Source: Gammaproteobacteria bacterium (GTDB lineage Bacteria; Pseudomonadota; Gammaproteobacteria; Pseudomonadales; Azotimanducaceae). From it: a DNA stretch of 10,921 nt. The DNA is taken from the NCBI GenBank assembly GCA_002726925.1, contig PBTJ01000134.1, positions 1-10,921 of the forward strand, in the 5' to 3' direction. The notes beneath the pieces are model-generated. The model worked only from the letters and a program-made list of their open reading frames with translations, was not told the DNA's origin and ran no database searches. The first letter of the stretch is position 1; each line of letters begins with the position of its first letter. Made by a program: the position numbers and the translations under genes. This document shows, piece by piece, positions 1,166-10,921 of this stretch.

Positions 1166-2725
1166 TCAGCGGGAGCAGCCTAGCAATTCGGCTAAGTGGG
1201 TAAACAAAGAGTCGAGCGACACGTCTGCGTCGGTATGTCCGAACACCAGCCTGTCCGGCCGTATTAATAGGGCTTCGCCGGTTTGCAGAAGTTCTGGGAG
1301 CTTGCCGTGCACCATCTCGAGCGTTGAAACGTCAAGTAATTGGATTTGCAGTGCCGCGATTAAGGCAGCGCTTTTCTGATTCATCGAAACGCTTCCGTGA
1401 GTGAGCAGGGCAAAATTCGCGCCTAACAGATCATCGAAGCGAACTTCCTTGCCCTCAGGGTCACGCACAACGGGCTGCGGCAACAGGTACCCAGTGGCGC
1501 CAGCGTTGGATACCTGTTTGCTGAGGACGACACCGGATCGAATGGGGGGTTGCTCCCGACCTTGGCCATAACCGGATTTTCGCGAGGTCTGCTGCATTTG
1601 CGGTGGCTCCTCACCTGCACGCGCTGCGGCTTCTGTGGCGGCCACATGCTGCATGAGGTGTCCCATGTCCACAGCCCAGGAAACCAGATCGTGTGCATGG
1701 TCATCGCGCTCGGCCTGGTAGCTGTCGAGTAATGACGGTGCGCATTGGCCGTTGAGCACCAGCGGCAGTTTCCACGCGAGGTTGATCACATCACGCATGC
1801 CCGAGTTCATGCCTTGCCCCAGAAAGGGCGGTGTTTGGTGAGCGGCGTCGCCGGCGAGAAAAATACGGCCTTGCTGCCATTGTTCTGCTATCGCCGCATG
1901 AAACTGATACACCGCCGCACGTCGAACGCGGTACGTGTCCCTTGGCGTCCAGGTTTCCAGCAGGCGATGTATGGTCTGGTGCTCGAGCATATGCGCGGCT
2001 GTTTCGCCATCGTTTAGCTGAAATTCCCAGCGGCGGTAAGGATCCTTAGTGGCGACAAAGGTATGAATGCGATCCGGGTCGCATACCTGAAGCACCTCGT
2101 TCGGCAAGCTATGAGTTTTGATCATCTCTACGTCTACGACCAGCCAGTCCTGGTCGTAACCGAGATCACGCCACCCAATCCCTAATGCTTTGCGGACTGC
2201 GCTATTCGCGCCGTCACAAGCGAACAGATAATGGGCGGCGAGCGTAATCTCCCCCTCGTCCCCTAGCGCCTGAATCGCCACCTGCCTGGGGTCGCTGGAG
2301 AACTGAGTCATCTCGTAACCGATGTAGGCGGTTACGTTGGGGTGAGATTGGGCGGTATCGCGCAGATACGCTTCCAACTCCGGCTGATCAAACATGTTGG
2401 CTGGCTGCCAGCCATTGCTGCCGGTAGCGCGGGCATTACCGCCAAACAACCATTCGCGCTTGGCGTTGGCAAAGCCGGCACGCTCGCCCTCGCGTAGCGG
2501 CTGCATCATCTGCTGAACCGCTGTTGCCAGTCCTACGGGTTGCAGCGCGCGAATGATTTCGCCGTCCAAATTCACCGCCCTTGGGAGGGTGTAGACATCG
2601 GCTTCTTTCTCAATGGCGACGACAGTCAGTCCTGCTTCAGCGCACAGTATCGCGCCCAAACAGCCGACGGGGCCAAGCCCGACAATGGCCACATCGAAGA
2701 CGGTGTGGTCGGCTGCTGAGCTCAT
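1166..2725 (-). CDS. FAD-dependent aromatic monooxygenase, MhpA-like
   Basis: 519 residues, the usual size of class A flavoprotein hydroxylases of the 3-(3-hydroxyphenyl)propionate hydroxylase/phenol hydroxylase group. Visible motifs: the Rossmann GLGPVG at 16-21 with E39 at the end of the second strand (FAD ribose), the DG motif at 171-172 (FACDGANSAVR), the GD motif at 292-293 (FLAGDAAHQTPP) followed by GQGMNSGMRD, and a C-terminal thioredoxin-like domain from about 412 (GYLLPQP) to about 495 (LLIRPDRLVFG). Such enzymes use NAD(P)H and O2 to add a hydroxyl ortho or para to an existing phenolic OH. The start ATG overlaps the stop of the FAH-family gene by 4 bp (ATGA), and no separate Shine-Dalgarno sequence is visible, so translational coupling is likely. 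It is the last gene of the TetR-FAH-monooxygenase transcript. The class is firm; the substrate is not, so no gene symbol is given. Confidence 0.9.
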   Translation of the reverse strand: MSSAADHTVFDVAIVGLGPVGCLGAILCAEAGLTVVAIEKEADVYTLPRAVNLDGEIIRALQPVGLATAVQQMMQPLREGERAGFANAKREWLFGGNARATGSNGWQPANMFDQPELEAYLRDTAQSHPNVTAYIGYEMTQFSSDPRQVAIQALGDEGEITLAAHYLFACDGANSAVRKALGIGWRDLGYDQDWLVVDVEMIKTHSLPNEVLQVCDPDRIHTFVATKDPYRRWEFQLNDGETAAHMLEHQTIHRLLETWTPRDTYRVRRAAVYQFHAAIAEQWQQGRIFLAGDAAHQTPPFLGQGMNSGMRDVINLAWKLPLVLNGQCAPSLLDSYQAERDDHAHDLVSWAVDMGHLMQHVAATEAAARAGEEPPQMQQTSRKSGYGQGREQPPIRSGVVLSKQVSNAGATGYLLPQPVVRDPEGKEVRFDDLLGANFALLTHGSVSMNQKSAALIAALQIQLLDVSTLEMVHGKLPELLQTGEALLIRPDRLVFGHTDADVSLDSLFTHLAELLGCSR

Positions 2726-3597
2726 TGAATGGTGGCGGTATCAGGCTCGGCGATGACCTCGTTCTCAATGTAGCCGAGGCCTTCGATCTCTACTTTTACT
2801 GTGTCGCCCAGTTGCAGTGTCCCTTGGGGCTGCATGGCGGCGCCCACACCACTAGGGGTGCCGGTGGCGATGACATCGCCGGGCTCAAGGGTGAAGGCCG
2901 TGCTTAAGAACGCGATGATGTCGTAGCAGTTAAAGATCAGGTCGTCCGTATTGGTCTCTTGTCGCAGCTGGCCGTTAACGAAGGTGCGCAGCATGAGATT
3001 GTGTGGGTCGACCTCATCAGGGGTGACGATGGCGGGGCCGAAGGGATTATGTGTATCCCAAGACTTGCCCATCGTGAACTGGGGCGGGGTAGCCAAAAAC
3101 TGCCACTCGCGAACGCTTACGTCGTTGAGTACACAAAAGCCTGCAATCACCTTGCTGGCGTCGTCTTTGCTGACGCGGCGGCAGCGTTTGCCAATGACTA
3201 AGCCAAGTTCGCCTTCGTAGTCGAGCATCTTGGTCTCCGTTGGCGAGTGAATGGGCGCATAGGGACCATTCGCCGAGGTTGCCTGTTTGGTGAATACCAC
3301 GGGGTATTTTGGAATTTCCATGTTGCTTTCTTCGGCGTGGGCGCGGTAGTTCAGGCCAATGGCTAAGATCTTCGGCGGCCGTTTCATGGGTGCCTCAATG
3401 ACCACATCGGCTGCAGCAAAATGCGCTGCCGCGTTTATGTGCTTGGCCGCCTCCTGCATGGCGGCATCGCCTGCTTCCAAAAAGTTCAGCATATCGTCTG
3501 GCAAGCTGGGTGTGACCTTTGAAAGATCGACGATCTGCCCGCCCTGCAGCAAGCCAATGCGCGTGCGTGAAGATTCGGTAAAGGTGATCAGTTTCAT
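2722..3597 (-). CDS. Fumarylacetoacetate hydrolase (FAH) family protein
   Basis: 291 residues. An N-terminal cap of about 70 residues (MKLITF..., RIGLLQGG, IVDLS) precedes the FAH catalytic fold: GLNYRAHAEE at 81-90, metal-binding E128 and E130 (DYEGELGLVIG), D159 (VLNDVSVRE), the KSWDT loop at 178-182 (FTMGKSWDT), and GTPSGVG at 246-252. The divalent metal ligands E-x-E...D are all present, so the enzyme should be active. Family members cleave or decarboxylate ring-fission products (fumarylacetoacetate, fumarylpyruvate, homoprotocatechuate products, acylpyruvates); sequence alone does not separate these. It is coupled on both sides by ATGA overlaps, to the TetR gene upstream (3594-3597) and the monooxygenase downstream (2722-2725). 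Between a hydroxylase and a divergent ring-cleavage dioxygenase, it most likely handles the ring-cleavage product in the cytoplasm. A modest GGAAA precedes its ATG. Confidence 0.9.
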   Translation of the reverse strand: MKLITFTESSRTRIGLLQGGQIVDLSKVTPSLPDDMLNFLEAGDAAMQEAAKHINAAAHFAAADVVIEAPMKRPPKILAIGLNYRAHAEESNMEIPKYPVVFTKQATSANGPYAPIHSPTETKMLDYEGELGLVIGKRCRRVSKDDASKVIAGFCVLNDVSVREWQFLATPPQFTMGKSWDTHNPFGPAIVTPDEVDPHNLMLRTFVNGQLRQETNTDDLIFNCYDIIAFLSTAFTLEPGDVIATGTPSGVGAAMQPQGTLQLGDTVKVEIEGLGYIENEVIAEPDTATIQ

Positions 3598-4250
3598 AGT
3601 GGTTTCCGTATCGATGTGAATAAGTCGGCGACGGCATCGGCATGGGCGTCGACGGTTGCTGGGTCCAAGGGGTTCGTGCCAGAGAGCGCTGTCGCTTCTG
3701 CGGCGTTTGAAAACATCAGCGTGGCCGCGCCAGTGAGTGCGTAATAAAAATGATGCGCGTCCATCTTCGGCGCGATGCCAAGCTGCGTTGCACGGTTAAA
3801 TACGCCGCACACCTGCGCGTACCAAGGGCGAACCGAGCGGTCTAGCAACCACGCCAGGCGCCAGTCCTGGGCCATGCCCTCCTGGATCATTAGTCGATTG
3901 AGCTCGGGGTATTTGGCGCAAAACTTCACATAAGTGCGCACGAAGAATCGCAGTTGTTGCGTTTCATCGATTTGTTTCATGTGATTTAAGGCGGCGCCTA
4001 GGTCGCTCTCGGTGGTCGACATCAAATGTTCGGTGGCGGCTTGCCAAAGCGCTTTTTTTGACCCGAAGTGGTAGTTGATGAGGCCTCGCTTGACGCCGGC
4101 CTCAGTCTCTATACCGCGGGTGGAGGAGGCGTCATAGCCTTGTGTAGAGAAGGCCAGTAGAGCTGCATTGACCAATTTGAGCTTGGTGGCCTGGGCGTCT
4201 CGAAGCCTGTGTTCGCAGCTCGCGGTAGTGATTTGCTTGGCAGTTTGCAT
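3594..4250 (-). CDS. TetR/AcrR family transcriptional regulator
   Basis: 218 residues. The N-terminal DNA-binding domain spans about 20-66: helix 1 KLVNAALLAFSTQGYDASS, then the helix-turn-helix (TRGIETEAGVKRGLINYHF) with the hallmark YHFGSKKALW at 60-69. The remaining 145 residues are helical and form the ligand-binding/dimer domain (HHFYYALTGAATLMF is typical of TetR C-terminal domains). The N-terminus before helix 1 is about 20 residues longer than the minimal domain. No clear Shine-Dalgarno sequence precedes the ATG at 4250, but no better start exists downstream before the domain. It is the first gene of its transcript and overlaps the FAH gene by 4 bp. It probably represses the divergent dioxygenase-GST unit, and perhaps itself, by binding the palindrome at 4300-4315. 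The inducer is likely an aromatic substrate or intermediate; this is inference from position. Confidence 0.92.
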   Translation of the reverse strand: MQTAKQITTASCEHRLRDAQATKLKLVNAALLAFSTQGYDASSTRGIETEAGVKRGLINYHFGSKKALWQAATEHLMSTTESDLGAALNHMKQIDETQQLRFFVRTYVKFCAKYPELNRLMIQEGMAQDWRLAWLLDRSVRPWYAQVCGVFNRATQLGIAPKMDAHHFYYALTGAATLMFSNAAEATALSGTNPLDPATVDAHADAVADLFTSIRKPL

Positions 4251-4269
4251 GTTGTAGGCACAATAGAAC

Positions 4270-4298
4270 TTGTCTTGCGTGGGAGCACTTTATATATT
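4270..4298 (+). promoter_or_regulatory. Candidate sigma70 promoter for the dioxygenase-GST unit
   Basis: TTGTCT (4270-4275, 4 of 6 to the -35 consensus) and TATATT (4293-4298, 5 of 6 to the -10 consensus) are separated by 17 bp. Transcription would begin near 4305, leaving a leader of about 28 nt with a good ribosome binding site before the ATG at 4333. Found by eye only. Confidence 0.45.
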
Positions 4299-4299
4299 G

Positions 4300-4315
4300 C
4301 TTGTCGATTGGCAAG
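4300..4315. promoter_or_regulatory. Candidate TetR-type operator (imperfect palindrome)
   Basis: CTTGTCGATTGGCAAG is a 16-bp imperfect inverted repeat in which 6 of 8 base pairs are symmetric, with CTTG...CAAG arms. It directly follows the -10 element and covers the predicted start of transcription of the dioxygenase gene, where a bound repressor would block initiation. An extra copy of the half-site CTTGTC lies at 4269-4274, 31 bp upstream (about three helical turns). The assignment to the neighbouring TetR protein is inference from location and size. Confidence 0.4.
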
Positions 4316-4323
4316 TTAAACGT

Positions 4324-4329
4324 GAGGGG
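4324..4329 (+). promoter_or_regulatory. Ribosome binding site for the dioxygenase gene
   Basis: GAGGGG shortly before ATG 4333. It favours this start over the in-frame TTG at 4270, which would add 21 residues, lies inside the promoter region and has no ribosome binding site. Confidence 0.65.
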
Positions 4330-4332
4330 ACG

Positions 4333-5256
4333 ATGACAGGGATCAAAGACGTTTTATATGTCAGGTTTTGTGTCACAGATTTGCAGGCACAGCAGAAATT
4401 TCTGGATGATTTCGGATTTCAAACTAGGATCGACGACGGCTTGCTGATGGCCCGAGGCACTGATGGCAGCCCCTATATTTACCTCGCCGAAGAAGCCAGC
4501 GAGCCTGCCTTCGTCAGCGTCGGTTTTGCCGCCGAGTCAGAGGCCGCGCTGCGCGACATTGCCGCCATAGACGGCACACCGATTGAACCCAACCCCTTGT
4601 CCGGGGGCGGCCTTATTGCGCGTCTCACCGACCCCAACGGTTTTTCGGTTGAAGTCGTTGCTGATATCGCCGATTCATCATTGCTGACCGTGGCTGGCCG
4701 CTCCGGCTTTAATGATGGCGTTGAGAAACAGCGCCTTGGCGAGCGCGTCGCCTTCGCGGCACCTGAATGTTTGGTCAAACGATTGGGCCATGTGGTGCTC
4801 ATGGTCAATGACTTCGGCGAGACCTTTGCGTGGTATCAACGCCGGCTTGGGCTGTTAATTTCCGATGAGATCGTCATGGACAAGGACGGCCAAGAACAAA
4901 GCTTGGGGTCTTTCACGCGGTGTAATCGTGGCGAGGAATATGTGGACCATCACACAGTATTTTTTATCAACGCCGGTCATGCAGATTTCAACCATGCGGC
5001 ATTTGAGGTCGCCAACTGGGACGTGCTGATGCAAAGCCACTATTTACTGAAGAAGGCAGGACATCAGCATTCGTTTGGTGTGGGCAAGCATATTTTGGGC
5101 AGCCAGACCTTTGACTATTGGAAAGATCCCAATGGCTTCATGCTTGAGCATTTCACCGACGGCGATCTGTTCAACGAATCCTTTGGTTCGCATAAACGCA
5201 GCCCCGCTGACCTCATGGGCACGCACTGGGGTCCTGATGGCATGCCCGGCCAGTAG
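4333..5256 (+). CDS. Type I extradiol (VOC-fold) ring-cleavage dioxygenase
   Basis: 307 residues from the ATG with the good ribosome binding site. Two VOC modules are visible: an N-terminal one (about 1-115, from DVLYVRFCVTDLQ to DPNGFSVEVVAD) and a catalytic C-terminal one (about 148-285). The catalytic module has the two-histidine/one-glutamate iron site: H153 (RLGHVVL), H221 (FNHAAFE) and E272 (FMLEHF), spaced like the family's known enzymes. Other expected features are H206/H207 (VDHHTVFF) and the conserved Tyr in FDYWKDPNG. The family cleaves catechols, and some members hydroquinones, next to the diol using Fe(II) or Mn(II) and O2. A tail of about 30 residues (GSHKRSPADLMGTHWGP) follows the catalytic fold. 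It heads the + strand unit, 3 bp before the anchored GST gene, and diverges from the TetR-FAH-monooxygenase operon. Enzyme class is secure; substrate unknown. Confidence 0.88.
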   Translation: MTGIKDVLYVRFCVTDLQAQQKFLDDFGFQTRIDDGLLMARGTDGSPYIYLAEEASEPAFVSVGFAAESEAALRDIAAIDGTPIEPNPLSGGGLIARLTDPNGFSVEVVADIADSSLLTVAGRSGFNDGVEKQRLGERVAFAAPECLVKRLGHVVLMVNDFGETFAWYQRRLGLLISDEIVMDKDGQEQSLGSFTRCNRGEEYVDHHTVFFINAGHADFNHAAFEVANWDVLMQSHYLLKKAGHQHSFGVGKHILGSQTFDYWKDPNGFMLEHFTDGDLFNESFGSHKRSPADLMGTHWGPDGMPGQ

Positions 5257-5259
5257 ACT

Positions 5260-6276
5260 ATGCCAATGGAGCTAAGCGCCGTCATGGGCGGGGTCATTGG
5301 TGCAGTCATCCTGCTGGCGCTAACGCTTTTTTTACGCGAACGCGCGCAGCGACAGACCCGTCCGATGCCAGCGGGATTGCAGGCGGATATTAGCCTGCCG
5401 TTTGCTGCGCAGTGGACGCTCTACCACAACCCTTTTTCACTGTGCTCGAAAAAGATACGTGTTTGTTTGGCGGAATACGGTGTGGCTTACGACAGTGTCG
5501 CTATCGATCTTATCGAGACCGGCAGCTATCAAAACATCAGCCGTGAATTTCTCAAGGTCAATCCTGCTGCCACGGTGCCGGTATTGCTGCATAACGCTCA
5601 TCCTGTTTATGAATCGCACGAACAACTCAACTATGTGGCAGCAGTGGTCGATCAGACTGGCTTGCTGGTGCCGCAAGATCCACAGCTGCGGCAGGTGATG
5701 GATGCATGGGTGTACAAAACCTCCCTGTTGGGTGATGACCCAGTCGGCGCACCGGAAGCAACCGCAGGTAATGCAGTGCCGGGGTTAACGGTTCCAATCT
5801 TTGCCTCTATGTTGGCAAAGATCCCCACAGTGAAAATTGTCGAGGGACTGCTCTTCCACCGTATCAAGAAGCGGGCATTGCTCTTTTTGCTCATGAAGCG
5901 GAGAGGGCTGCAGAAAACCCTCACGCTGAAGCCGGTGACCGGCGTCCTCAATAGGTCCGCCAAAGCCATGACAGCGCATCTGCATGAACTGGAGTTGCAG
6001 CTGGAGAACAGCGGCGGGCCGTGGATCTGCGCTGATCAATTCACCCTTGCCGACGTGGGCATGATGGTAATTTTTGATCGTCTGCGCGAGGGCGACTGGC
6101 TGCACACGTTGGTGCATCACCGGCCTGTGCTTGACGCCTACTGGACGGCGCTGCAGCAGCGGCCAAGTTATCAAGCCGGGTGCGCGGATTTCACCCATCC
6201 CGCGGTCGCCGAGGCGACCGCCGAGTTGGCAGCGCTGAAGCAGGCGGATCAGTGGCCCTCAGGCATTCCTCGGTAA
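5260..6276 (+). CDS. Membrane-anchored glutathione S-transferase-fold protein
   Basis: 338 residues, about 110 more than a plain GST. Residues about 5-25 (from LSAVMGGVIG to TLFL) form one uninterrupted hydrophobic helix followed by basic RERAQRQTR, which predicts a single transmembrane anchor with the enzyme domain in the cytoplasm. The GST N-domain begins at about 52 (WTLYHNPFSLCSKKIRVCL). S60, C62, S63 and R67 line up with the SSCSxRVRI active-site motif of zeta-class enzymes (maleylacetoacetate and maleylpyruvate isomerases). The cis-Pro loop is NPAATVP (P107) and the glutathione-binding ES pair is E118-S119. A long helical insert with basic patches (about 185-225, HRIKKRALLFLLMKRR) lies in the C-domain before the capping box TLADVG. 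The gene starts 3 bp after the dioxygenase stop without its own strong ribosome binding site, so coupling is likely. It may isomerise the ring-cleavage product; that is inference. Confidence 0.78.
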   Translation: MPMELSAVMGGVIGAVILLALTLFLRERAQRQTRPMPAGLQADISLPFAAQWTLYHNPFSLCSKKIRVCLAEYGVAYDSVAIDLIETGSYQNISREFLKVNPAATVPVLLHNAHPVYESHEQLNYVAAVVDQTGLLVPQDPQLRQVMDAWVYKTSLLGDDPVGAPEATAGNAVPGLTVPIFASMLAKIPTVKIVEGLLFHRIKKRALLFLLMKRRGLQKTLTLKPVTGVLNRSAKAMTAHLHELELQLENSGGPWICADQFTLADVGMMVIFDRLREGDWLHTLVHHRPVLDAYWTALQQRPSYQAGCADFTHPAVAEATAELAALKQADQWPSGIPR

Positions 6277-8299: not shown

Positions 8300-9061
8300 C
8301 TAGGTGCCGGTCCAGTTTGGCGCGCGCTTCTCGGCAAAGGCCACTGGGCCTTCCTTGGCGTCGTTAGAAGCAAAGACCGATTTTTGCAGGGGCACCTGCA
8401 TCTCCCACAGCTTGTCTTCTTCAATACCCATGGCCGCGGAGCGTACCAGTGATTTGGAGGCCTTTACCGCCAGCGGCGCATTTTCGGCAATGCGTTCGGC
8501 CAGCGCGATGGCGGCATCCAGTGCTTTGCCAGGTTTGGTCATCTCGCTCAGCAGGCCCGCATCCAACGCCTCTTGCGCGGTGATCGGCTCGCCGGTTAAT
8601 GCCATTTCCATGGCCTTGGCGTAGCCCACCCGCGATGGCAGTCGAAAGACGCCGCCAGCGGCGGCAAAAAGACCAACCTTGACTTCACGAATACCAATCT
8701 TGGCATCGCTTGCAGCAACGATGAGGTCGCAGGTCAGCATGACCTCGCAGCCACCGGCTAGGGCAAAGCCGTTGACCGCAGCGATCAGGGGCTTTTCTGC
8801 GCCGGAGCGTACAAATTGATTTAGTGGGCCGATGTCTTCGCCGCGCGCAAAGGCTTTTAGATCCATGCCGGCGCAAAAGGCGCGACCGTTGCCGGTAATG
8901 ACACCTGCAACCAAGGAATTGTCAGCATCCAGTTCTTGGATAGCGGTCCAGAGTCCATTTGAGAGTGCGCCGTTAATGGCGTTCATGGCTTCGGGTCGGT
9001 TTAGGGTGATCACCATTACGCCACCGCGGCGCTCGACGATGACTGCTTGTTCTTCGCTCAC
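8300..9061 (-). CDS. Enoyl-CoA hydratase/isomerase (crotonase) family protein
   Basis: 253 residues from a GTG start at 9061, chosen because AAGGGAGAG lies just upstream; a longer frame from TTG at 9118 would add 19 residues of poor character. The crotonase core is clear: VITLNRPEAMNAIN (18-30), the oxyanion-hole segment GRAFCAGMDLK (59-69), AAVNGFALAGGCE (94-106), and VGLFAAAGGVFRLPSRVG. Both glutamates used by enoyl-CoA hydratases are present, E106 (GGCE) and E126 (IREV), 20 residues apart as in the well-studied enzymes, so hydration of a trans-2-enoyl-CoA is likely rather than a hydrolase or dehalogenase role. Cytoplasmic; fatty-acid or aromatic-CoA beta-oxidation are both possible. It converges with the GFA gene at a bidirectional terminator and diverges from the ABM-TadA gene with a 134-bp gap. 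A single-gene transcript is the simplest reading. Confidence 0.92.
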   Translation of the reverse strand: MSEEQAVIVERRGGVMVITLNRPEAMNAINGALSNGLWTAIQELDADNSLVAGVITGNGRAFCAGMDLKAFARGEDIGPLNQFVRSGAEKPLIAAVNGFALAGGCEVMLTCDLIVAASDAKIGIREVKVGLFAAAGGVFRLPSRVGYAKAMEMALTGEPITAQEALDAGLLSEMTKPGKALDAAIALAERIAENAPLAVKASKSLVRSAAMGIEEDKLWEMQVPLQKSVFASNDAKEGPVAFAEKRAPNWTGT

Positions 9062-9065
9062 TTTT

Positions 9066-9074
9066 CTCTCCCTT
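9066..9074 (-). promoter_or_regulatory. Ribosome binding site for the enoyl-CoA hydratase gene
   Basis: On the - strand AAGGGAGAG precedes GTG 9061 by 4 nt (6 nt from the AGGGAG core). It fixes the start at the GTG. Confidence 0.75.
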
Positions 9075-9195
9075 AGTTGATATTTGGCCAAGCATGGCAT
9101 GAAGTGCCTAAGGAACAAACTGTCTGTGAGGGAGCGAAATGATGTGGTGTAGTATGTCGCGTCGTTTGCTAGCGCGGCCTATCGGGACGTAAACC

Positions 9196-9921
9196 ATGGT
9201 GACATTGGAGGGCACAATGAGCGTGCCGCAAGATCAGCTTGAGGCTACTCAGGTCGCCTTGGTGGTGCATATTGCGCTGACTCAGGCAGAGCCCGGTTGC
9301 TTGTCTTTCGAGGTTTGGCCGAGTGCTGAAAACCCGCTGATCTTTCACGTCAAGGAAGCCTTCATCGACGGCGAAGCCTTCGCTGACCATCAAGCTCGCG
9401 CGGGCGCTAGCCCTTGGGGACAGCTAACCCAAGGGTTCGCTCGAGAATACCAAACGTCGGGCTTAGATCTGTCTGCCAGTGCGGACGAGACCTTTATGCA
9501 TCAAGCGCTGCAATTGGCTGATCATGCGAGTGAAGCCGGCGAGGTGCCGGTAGGTGCAGTGTTGGTGCGTGATGGACAAGTCATGGGGCAGGGCTTTAAT
9601 CAGCCTATTAGCGGACTTGATCCGACTGCCCATGCGGAGATCATTGCGTTGCGACAAGCGGCGCAGTTGCACAACAACTATCGACTCCCGGGCAGCACAC
9701 TCTATGTCACCATAGAACCTTGCTTGATGTGTGTGGGCGCCCTAATTCATGCGCGAGTAGCGCGTGTTGTGTTTGGTGCGCTTGAACCCAAGGCGGGCGC
9801 CGTACTAAGTCACCCTTGTTTGGAGTCGTATCCGAGCAACCATCGATTTGCGGTGACCCCAGGGGTGCTAGGCGAGATTTGCGGGCAGCGAATGAGTCGA
9901 TTCTTTGCGGCCAGGCGTTAA
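9196..9921 (+). CDS. tadA: Fusion: ABM (putative quinol monooxygenase) domain + TadA tRNA adenosine deaminase
   Basis: 241 residues in one uninterrupted frame. Residues 1 to about 91 match the antibiotic-biosynthesis-monooxygenase (ABM) family: VTLEGTMSVP strand, LVVHIALTQAEPGCLSFEV, FHVKEAFIDGEAFADHQARAGASPWGQLT. Residues about 97-241 are a complete TadA: DETFMHQALQLA, EVPVGAVLV, zinc ligand H146 and catalytic E148 (TAHAEI), NNYRLPGSTLYVT, zinc ligands C176 and C179 (EPCLMC), GALIHARVARVVFGA, NHRF, and a basic C-terminus FFAARR. TadA makes inosine at position 34 of tRNA-Arg(ACG) and is normally essential and stand-alone at about 160 residues. The ABM part is usually a separate protein of about 95 residues. 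The start at 9196 keeps the first ABM strand; ATG 9217 has a better ribosome binding site (GGAGGG) but would cut that strand. Adjacent purL supports a real tadA locus. An artefactual join by an indel cannot be excluded from one sequence. Confidence 0.88.
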   Translation: MVTLEGTMSVPQDQLEATQVALVVHIALTQAEPGCLSFEVWPSAENPLIFHVKEAFIDGEAFADHQARAGASPWGQLTQGFAREYQTSGLDLSASADETFMHQALQLADHASEAGEVPVGAVLVRDGQVMGQGFNQPISGLDPTAHAEIIALRQAAQLHNNYRLPGSTLYVTIEPCLMCVGALIHARVARVVFGALEPKAGAVLSHPCLESYPSNHRFAVTPGVLGEICGQRMSRFFAARR

Positions 9922-9978: not shown

Positions 9979-10921
9979 TTGAACGCGACCTCCGACTCAG
10001 CGCCACGTTCGCTTCCCCCTCTGTTATTGAATGGCCCAGCAGCGCTATCCGTGTTCGCCCTCGCCAAGATACAAGTCGATCTGCCGATGGTGGTGTATGC
10101 GCAATACCTGCACGTACTGCAGCTGCAGGGCGAGCTGAGTCAGGACGATCTCAATCAAGTAAACACGCTGCTGACTTACGGACCGACCCTTGAACTACCA
10201 GTCCGGCAGGGCAAACGGCTGACCACAGTGCTACCTCGCAGCGGCACGATCTCGCCATGGTCGAGTAAGGCCAGTGACATCTTCGCACGCTGTGGATTGC
10301 AAGGTGTCCTGCGAGTGGAGCGCGGCGTGCGCTGGTTTGTTGCTGACGACGCGGATCTATCTGCTATCGAACTCGAGCGGCTATACGACCGTATGACCGA
10401 GCAATGTTGGGCCGAGGAAGACCTACAGACTTGGTTTGACCAGGCAGAACCTAAGCCGGTGGAGCAGGTGCCATTGTTATCCCAGGGTCTGTCGGCACTG
10501 CAGCAGGCGAATTCACGCTTGGGTTTGGCGCTGTCGGAAGACGAGTTCGAATACCTGCAGGTTGCCTACCAAAACTTGCAGCGCGACCCCACTGATGTCG
10601 AGTTGATGATGTTCGCCCAGGCGAACTCTGAACATTGTCGGCACAAGATTTTTAATGCCGACTGGATTGTAGATCAGGTGCCACACAGCGGCTCGCTGTT
10701 CGGCATGATTCGCAACACTCATCGTCAGATTAACGGCAAGGGCATTCTCAGCGCCTATAGCGACAATGCGGCGGTAATCGCAGGCCCGCAGATTGATCGA
10801 TTATCGGTTGATCAAGCATCGCACCAATATGCGTTTGCGCCTGAGCCGGCGCACATTCTGATGAAGGTGGAAACGCACAATCACCCCACAGCTATTGCGC
10901 CTTTTGCGGGTGCTGCCACCG
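9979..10921 (+). CDS. purL: Phosphoribosylformylglycinamidine synthase (FGAM synthetase), 5' part
   Basis: 314 complete codons, then the window ends; the large gammaproteobacterial PurL is about 1,300 residues, so roughly a quarter is present. Recognisable blocks: the N-terminal [16 protein letters not shown] (like the ILRGxPALSxF start of known PurL), [15 protein letters not shown], then the catalytic-domain signature [18 protein letters not shown] at 212-229, [17 protein letters not shown], and [19 protein letters not shown] at the end. The enzyme uses ATP and glutamine to make FGAM in purine synthesis, in the cytoplasm. No ATG or GTG is available in frame after the TAG at 9967; TTG 9979 with AGGCGGG upstream is the best start, while CTG 10021 and TTG 10027 would begin almost exactly at the conserved block. 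It lies 57 bp after the ABM-TadA stop on the same strand. Identity is very secure; the start is not. Confidence 0.96.

Follow-up and report, generated by a model that had tools for sequence, protein, structure and literature searches.

An ABM domain and a complete TadA deaminase are joined in a single open reading frame, and this fusion is a real domain architecture, built of ordinary parts and found in one group of genomes only. As a rule, TadA is a housekeeping enzyme made as a separate protein. The window, which is the whole analyzed stretch of 10,921 nucleotides, is contig C124 of a 1.98 Mb draft genome (134 contigs, 82% complete). Judging from the sequence, we consider it likely that the gene yields one chain with two enzymes, probably assembled as one homodimer, and that this chain edits tRNA-Arg(ACG) as ordinary TadA does.

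One frame encodes both domains

The whole protein was searched against Pfam, and PF03992 matched residues 1–68 (E 1.2e-8, 35.4 bits, cut-off 23.1); the ABM domain on its own reached 38.4 bits against the same cut-off of 23.1. The TadA equivalog model of NCBIfam, NF008113, matched residues 95–241 with 174.3 bits (cut-off 150). Both models were above their cut-offs within the same frame, as the initial annotation had proposed, and the domain borders it drew are supported by sequence and conservation (Table 1). PF03992 was also matched by all 13 domains of the ABM alignment.

Table 1. Coordinates of the fusion gene, its parts, and its neighbors in the window
Feature	Position	Strand	Basis or remark
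ABM-TadA fusion ORF	9196–9921	+	ATG start, TAA stop, 241 residues
ABM domain (PF03992), residues 1–90	9196–9465	+	Pfam match above cut-off and kept invariant positions
Linker, residues 91–96	9466–9483	+	Low pairwise identity, 34%
TadA tRNA adenosine-34 deaminase domain, residues 97–241	9484–9918	+	NCBIfam NF008113 above cut-off; stop codon 9919–9921
Zinc and catalytic residues	H146 9631–9633; E148 9637–9639; C176 9721–9723; C179 9730–9732	+	
Internal ATG, Met101 (TadA helix-1 Met)	9496–9498	+	Sole in-frame ATG/GTG/TTG at residues 80–104 of the window's gene
purL, downstream neighbor	9979–10920	+	Named by sequence reading; frame open at window end
Enoyl-CoA hydratase/isomerase, divergent upstream neighbor	8300–9118	−	PF00378, E 2.1e-60

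The locus comparison revealed the tadA-purL order in the examined relatives as well. No consensus internal promoter or terminator was found in window 9060–9520. Farther upstream, at 1166–6276, lie genes for a FAD-binding hydroxylase, an FAA hydrolase, a TetR regulator, a glyoxalase/dioxygenase-superfamily protein, and a GST, and this set looks like one for the breakdown of aromatic compounds. Parts of it recur 5′ of the fusion at two other loci (L037 and L043), and none were seen at L038–L042 within the upstream stretches examined.

The fused frame recurs in one group of genomes

Counting homologs with both domains and comparing the locus, as had been suggested for checking the fusion, bore it out: eight of the 40 genomes of the genus-level group carried an unbroken, full-length frame without stops, covering residues 1–241 (2–241 in G024). 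The other seven fusions were 88%, 77%, 66%, 65%, 65%, 65%, and 61% identical to that of the window. TadA itself was matched in 35 of the 40 genomes, and the five without a match (G012, G015, G020, G025, and G028) were 64%–80% complete. In a scan of named genomes covering 80 of 314 relatives, seven had the fusion, all titled MAG, namely OM182 bacterium MED-G155, K189A clade AG-918-L22, SW42618_bin_3, HS5SWF_bin.10, HS5SWF_bin.30, MED810, and Pseudomonadales cluster1_bin.63. OM182 is placed by NCBI in the OMG group of Gammaproteobacteria.

A search of 206 genomes of the family gave no further fusion beyond these eight among the matches listed. For the class sample (369 genomes), the window's own was the sole fusion among the matches listed, and for the phylum sample (398 genomes), it was the sole spanning match among the best 47 (E 1e-55 or better); other members of the group were absent among the genomes listed for these two samples. 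The family, order, class, and phylum samples share genomes, and the profiles would overlook ABM relatives that are too distant. When the ABM domain alone was searched in the order sample of 390 genomes, a relative at E 1e-10 was present in 44, of which 40 were outside the group, so stand-alone ABM relatives occurred in 40 of the 386 order genomes outside it. None of the ABM-relative open frames outside the group in this sample exceeded 185 aa, and the tadA pattern was absent from all 26 outside ABM loci within about 1.5 kb on either side, where the contig allowed.

Several candidates from wider searches were set aside. Five long frames 5′ of tadA in other genera (L122–L126) contained no ABM-like sequence by eye, and several of them are presumably out-of-frame readings of guaA. 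Nine of ten candidates from the class search (L212–L221) had no ABM-like N-terminal part by eye, and the tenth, L220, had no TadA by pattern. The 10 tblastn matches examined for plasmids (254 records) and the 5 examined for phages (70 records) began at query residue 45 or beyond; H11, a match from residue 45, spans the end of a pgpC gene and continues into a separate tadA gene, and is therefore no fusion. IMG/VR gave one patterned stretch and no relative. No report of an ABM-TadA fusion was found in the titles and abstract openings of the open-licence papers listed.

Both halves are conserved

The TadA half retains all zinc and catalytic residues, as the initial annotation had stated. H146, C176, and C179 (zinc) and E148 (catalytic) were present in all eight fused proteins and in all 31 unfused rows aligned with Escherichia coli TadA, by whose residue roles the zinc ligands and the catalytic Glu are named. 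Among the TadA positions agreed in at least 80% of the 31 unfused rows, none was missing from at least six of the eight fused rows. The fused TadAs end 6–7 residues past the last FF pair (window 9904–9918), and most unfused rows end 9–26 residues past it. Four unfused TadAs (G003, G013, G023, and G063) are equally short at the C-terminus; G030, cut by a contig end, was left uncounted.

No second TadA was detected in the eight fused genomes. Each had one other match, of 33–49 bits over residues 83–199, which is presumably RibD; RibD models also match the window protein. tRNA-Arg(ACG) was found in six of the eight fused genomes (G011, G024, G029, G038, G001, and G033), and was not found in G000, the window's own draft (82% complete), or G007 (70% complete). 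Elsewhere in the group, G002 had two near-equal TadA matches (C80:1559–1996 and C10:8893–9327), and since this genome is 7% contaminated, one of the copies may be foreign.

For the ABM half, 20 positions show no variation among 26 stand-alone relatives, and 19 of these positions were kept in all eight fused domains: L4, G6, L22, H25, T29, E32, G34, C35, F38, V52, E54, F56, F62, H65, R68, S72, W74, R83, and Y85. The remaining one, Ile8, was kept in six of the eight. The fused domains depart at V18 and V81, which are T and F, respectively, in seven of the eight, and partly at V69 and L15. Over the 28 fused pairs, the mean pairwise identity was 62% for the ABM domain, 34% for the linker, and 73% for TadA. 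The dN/dS values cover 10 of these pairs. They were 0.065, 0.082, 0.094, 0.107, 0.124, and 0.22 (dS 1.5) for the ABM domain in the six computable pairs, with four saturated, and 0.067–0.106 for TadA in the five computable pairs, with five saturated.

The term "putative quinol monooxygenase" first given to the ABM half proved too specific. Its best solved relative by sequence was PA3566 (1x7v; 4.8e-8), listed with no function, other relatives were proteins without a stated function, and ArqI (8ecx; 0.0016) and LsrG (3qmq and 2gff; 0.0022) matched much more weakly; SO0527 (2bbe) was also among the PDB relatives. The LsrG model PRK10486 matched nine of the 13 ABM domains weakly (best E 4.4e-4) and gave the window's ABM domain 13.3 bits against a cut-off of 135, far below the level of an LsrG equivalog. 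No YgiN-named family occurred among the Pfam, NCBIfam, and PDB matches of the fusion and the ABM domains.

The fusion probably arose through an intergenic deletion

An abm gene with its own stop codon lies directly 5′ of tadA in five of the group's genomes (G005, G016, G017, G021, and G039). Separate genes in close relatives had initially been regarded as a sign against the fusion. Such genes do exist, but they mark a possible origin and not an error, because seven other assemblies carry the fused frame. The gap between the abm stop codon and the helix-1 Met of tadA is 97–175 nt in the separate genes, whereas the fused genes have 11 codons between Gly89 and Met101 (nine in G011). We therefore infer that a deletion, and not mere read-through, joined the genes, and the five genomes with adjacent separate genes make an intergenic deletion the probable origin. 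The tadA genes of the separate group lack an ATG ahead of the helix-1 Met; a TTG located eight codons upstream in all five genomes is presumably used as the start.

In the TadA tree, which lacks G026 as it was missed by the TadA pattern, the fused TadAs formed one clade (97/90) and the separate TadAs another (100/99). In the ABM tree, the fused ABM domains fell on one side of a branch with support of 100/95. Neither the best TadA tree nor the best ABM tree placed the fused and separate groups as sisters, but a single clade of all 13 was not rejected (p-AU 0.23 for TadA and 0.20 for ABM), so descent of both arrangements from one abm-tadA pair is neither established nor rejected by the trees. 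A purL tree of 20 rows, without G007 (too short) and four genomes that had no purL by pattern, recovered the same two groups with SH-aLRT values of 94 and 100, and likewise left their relation unsettled.

On the proposed course, a stand-alone abm gene would have stood 5′ of tadA-purL in an ancestor within this gammaproteobacterial group of OM182/K189A type. Loss of the abm stop codon and the intergenic stretch would then have produced an in-frame join. The fused gene itself has been inherited vertically.

Some features of the abm surroundings were also observed. In the abm-tadA gap of all five separate-gene genomes (L117–L121), some 35 bases around GGCTGGCGCTGTTAATAT, located before the TTG of tadA, resemble one another. 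They may represent a promoter or a regulatory site lost by the fusion; no consensus promoter or terminator was found in the gap of L118. The separate ABM of G016 (L121:5450–5752) has lost residues that are invariant elsewhere, at the positions of H25, H65, and R68, and may be decaying beside an intact tadA. An EamA-type transporter lies near abm at the unlinked loci L137 (by Pfam), L141, and L146 (by a look at the sequence) and at the separate-gene loci L118 and L121 (by a look at the sequence), and is possibly an old neighbor of abm.

Possible roles of the ABM half

The product of the fused gene would be a single chain of approximately 26 kDa. Its TadA half would convert A34 to inosine in tRNA-Arg(ACG), a reaction established for the family whose residues are kept here, and its ABM half would act on a small substrate, perhaps a reactive, quinone-like, or electrophilic one. 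Strong cross-talk between the halves would be absent. ABM and TadA proteins are both typically homodimers, and the simplest putative assembly is therefore a fused homodimer with a shared twofold axis.

A closer coupling of the two halves is conceivable, although we regard it as rather unlikely. The ABM half may bind, or be modified by, an oxidized or electrophilic metabolite and thereby alter TadA activity, so that editing of tRNA-Arg (or mRNA) would follow redox or aldehyde stress. The broader version, in which the module senses or consumes such a metabolite and so sets the inosine level of tRNA-Arg (and mRNA), is just as doubtful. The kept ABM residues, including the invariant Cys35, are consistent with this coupling, as are the genes beside stand-alone ABM relatives. 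A Pfam scan of 20 hand-picked neighbor genes from 16 of the 26 outside loci, run without a control set, found redox or electrophile families at six loci: Redoxin at L138 and L144, GST at L140 and L149, DJ-1, MarR, and OsmC at L142, and glyoxalase and flavin oxidoreductase at L148. Six other loci had a racemase, EamA, DUF6624, PhzF, a methyltransferase, or a lipocalin, and four had nothing. This sequence-based association is suggestive, but the neighbors were hand-picked, lacked a control, and vary by locus. According to excerpts of PMC12274486, 315 ABM architectures are counted in Pfam, and ABM domains are also fused to CoA ligases and glyoxalases; the Pseudomonas ABM protein ArqI, which bears a modification derived from glyoxal and has a partner enzyme as its target, offers a precedent; an excerpt of PMC7467310 reports that H2O2 induces TadA-type editing of fliC mRNA in Xanthomonas. 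Against coupling, the fused TadAs showed no group-specific change at conserved positions under the 80% and six-of-eight cuts.

Less probable still, the ABM half may serve TadA mainly as a dimer clamp or a solubility module and itself be inactive. The usual homodimeric state of both families and the short C-terminus of the fused TadAs would fit such a role. However, the kept ABM positions include the polar residues H25, T29, E32, C35, E54, H65, R68, S72, and R83, and the ABM dN/dS is as low as that of TadA, both of which argue against an inactive domain.

A role in holding the tRNA, in which the ferredoxin-like-fold ABM half would do what the N-terminal domain (ADAT3-N) does in eukaryotic ADAT3, appears very improbable. 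The PDB titles of ABM relatives do say "ferredoxin-like fold", and ADAT3-N contains a ferredoxin-like domain, as described in an excerpt of PMC8216470. But the net charge of the ABM half is −8 to 0 in the eight fusions by a crude, sequence-only measure, and ADAT3-N uses basic patches according to the same excerpt; a neutral to acidic ABM half therefore disfavors an ADAT3-N-like role. The invariant ABM set is, moreover, common to stand-alone proteins unlinked to tadA.

It is similarly improbable that an internal start near Met101 yields TadA as a second product or as the only one. This residue is an ATG in all eight fused genes, and tadA of the separate group has no ATG before the helix-1 Met, both of which would suit an internal start. 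However, Met101 is part of helix 1 and occurs in all 39 TadA rows, including the unfused ones, and therefore does not by itself mark a start site, a point on which the initial annotation is corrected. The motif DETF before it, first described as conserved, is not: the eight fused proteins have DETF, DETF, DESF, DEIL, DETW, DETW, NAQY, and DVIH. In-frame ATG, GTG, or TTG codons at residues 80–100 are absent from five of the eight fused genes, including that of the window, and present in G033, G038, and G011; in these three, the in-frame TTG or GTG at residues 90–100 makes a second product possible. Sequence and conservation support the original view that the deaminase is translated as part of the single longer chain.

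Finally, an assembly or frameshift artifact, which the incomplete 134-contig draft and the relatives with separate genes might suggest, has next to no probability and is taken as refuted, given the unbroken frame in seven other assemblies at 61%–88% identity and the low dN/dS in both halves.

Significance and comparison with known systems

The regulation of bacterial A-to-I editing is described as unclear in an excerpt of PMC13170351. A natural, long-conserved fusion that joins TadA to an enzyme for small molecules allows editing control to be tested directly. An effect of the ABM half on editing would point to a signal; if editing is left unchanged, TadA would tolerate a dimeric N-terminal partner. 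Should the ABM half turn out to sense a metabolite, the fusion would be a bacterial wobble-editing enzyme with a built-in metabolite-responsive domain.

Compared with ordinary TadA (NF008113; solved as 1z3a), the fused proteins have the same whole deaminase domain with its zinc and catalytic residues, and tRNA-Arg(ACG) was found in six of the eight genomes. Ordinary TadAs among those examined here have no ABM, whereas in the fused eight an ABM domain of 90 residues and a linker precede the deaminase. Stand-alone proteins of the ABM subfamily share with the fusion the PF03992 fold family and 19 of the 20 subfamily-invariant positions; unlike the fusion, they are separate chains, and none of the 26 outside loci has tadA. 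The fusions of ABM with CoA ligases or glyoxalases described in the excerpts of PMC12274486 likewise unite ABM and another enzyme in one chain, but the partner in the present fusion is a tRNA-editing enzyme. The eukaryotic ADAT2/ADAT3 enzyme, as presented in the excerpt of PMC8216470, likewise deaminates the wobble adenosine and carries an additional alpha/beta domain at the N-terminus. There, the subunit that bears ADAT3-N is catalytically inactive, and ADAT3-N itself is basic and binds tRNA. In the fusion, by contrast, the domain in front has a neutral to acidic charge and resembles an enzyme, and the catalytic residues of the deaminase are retained.
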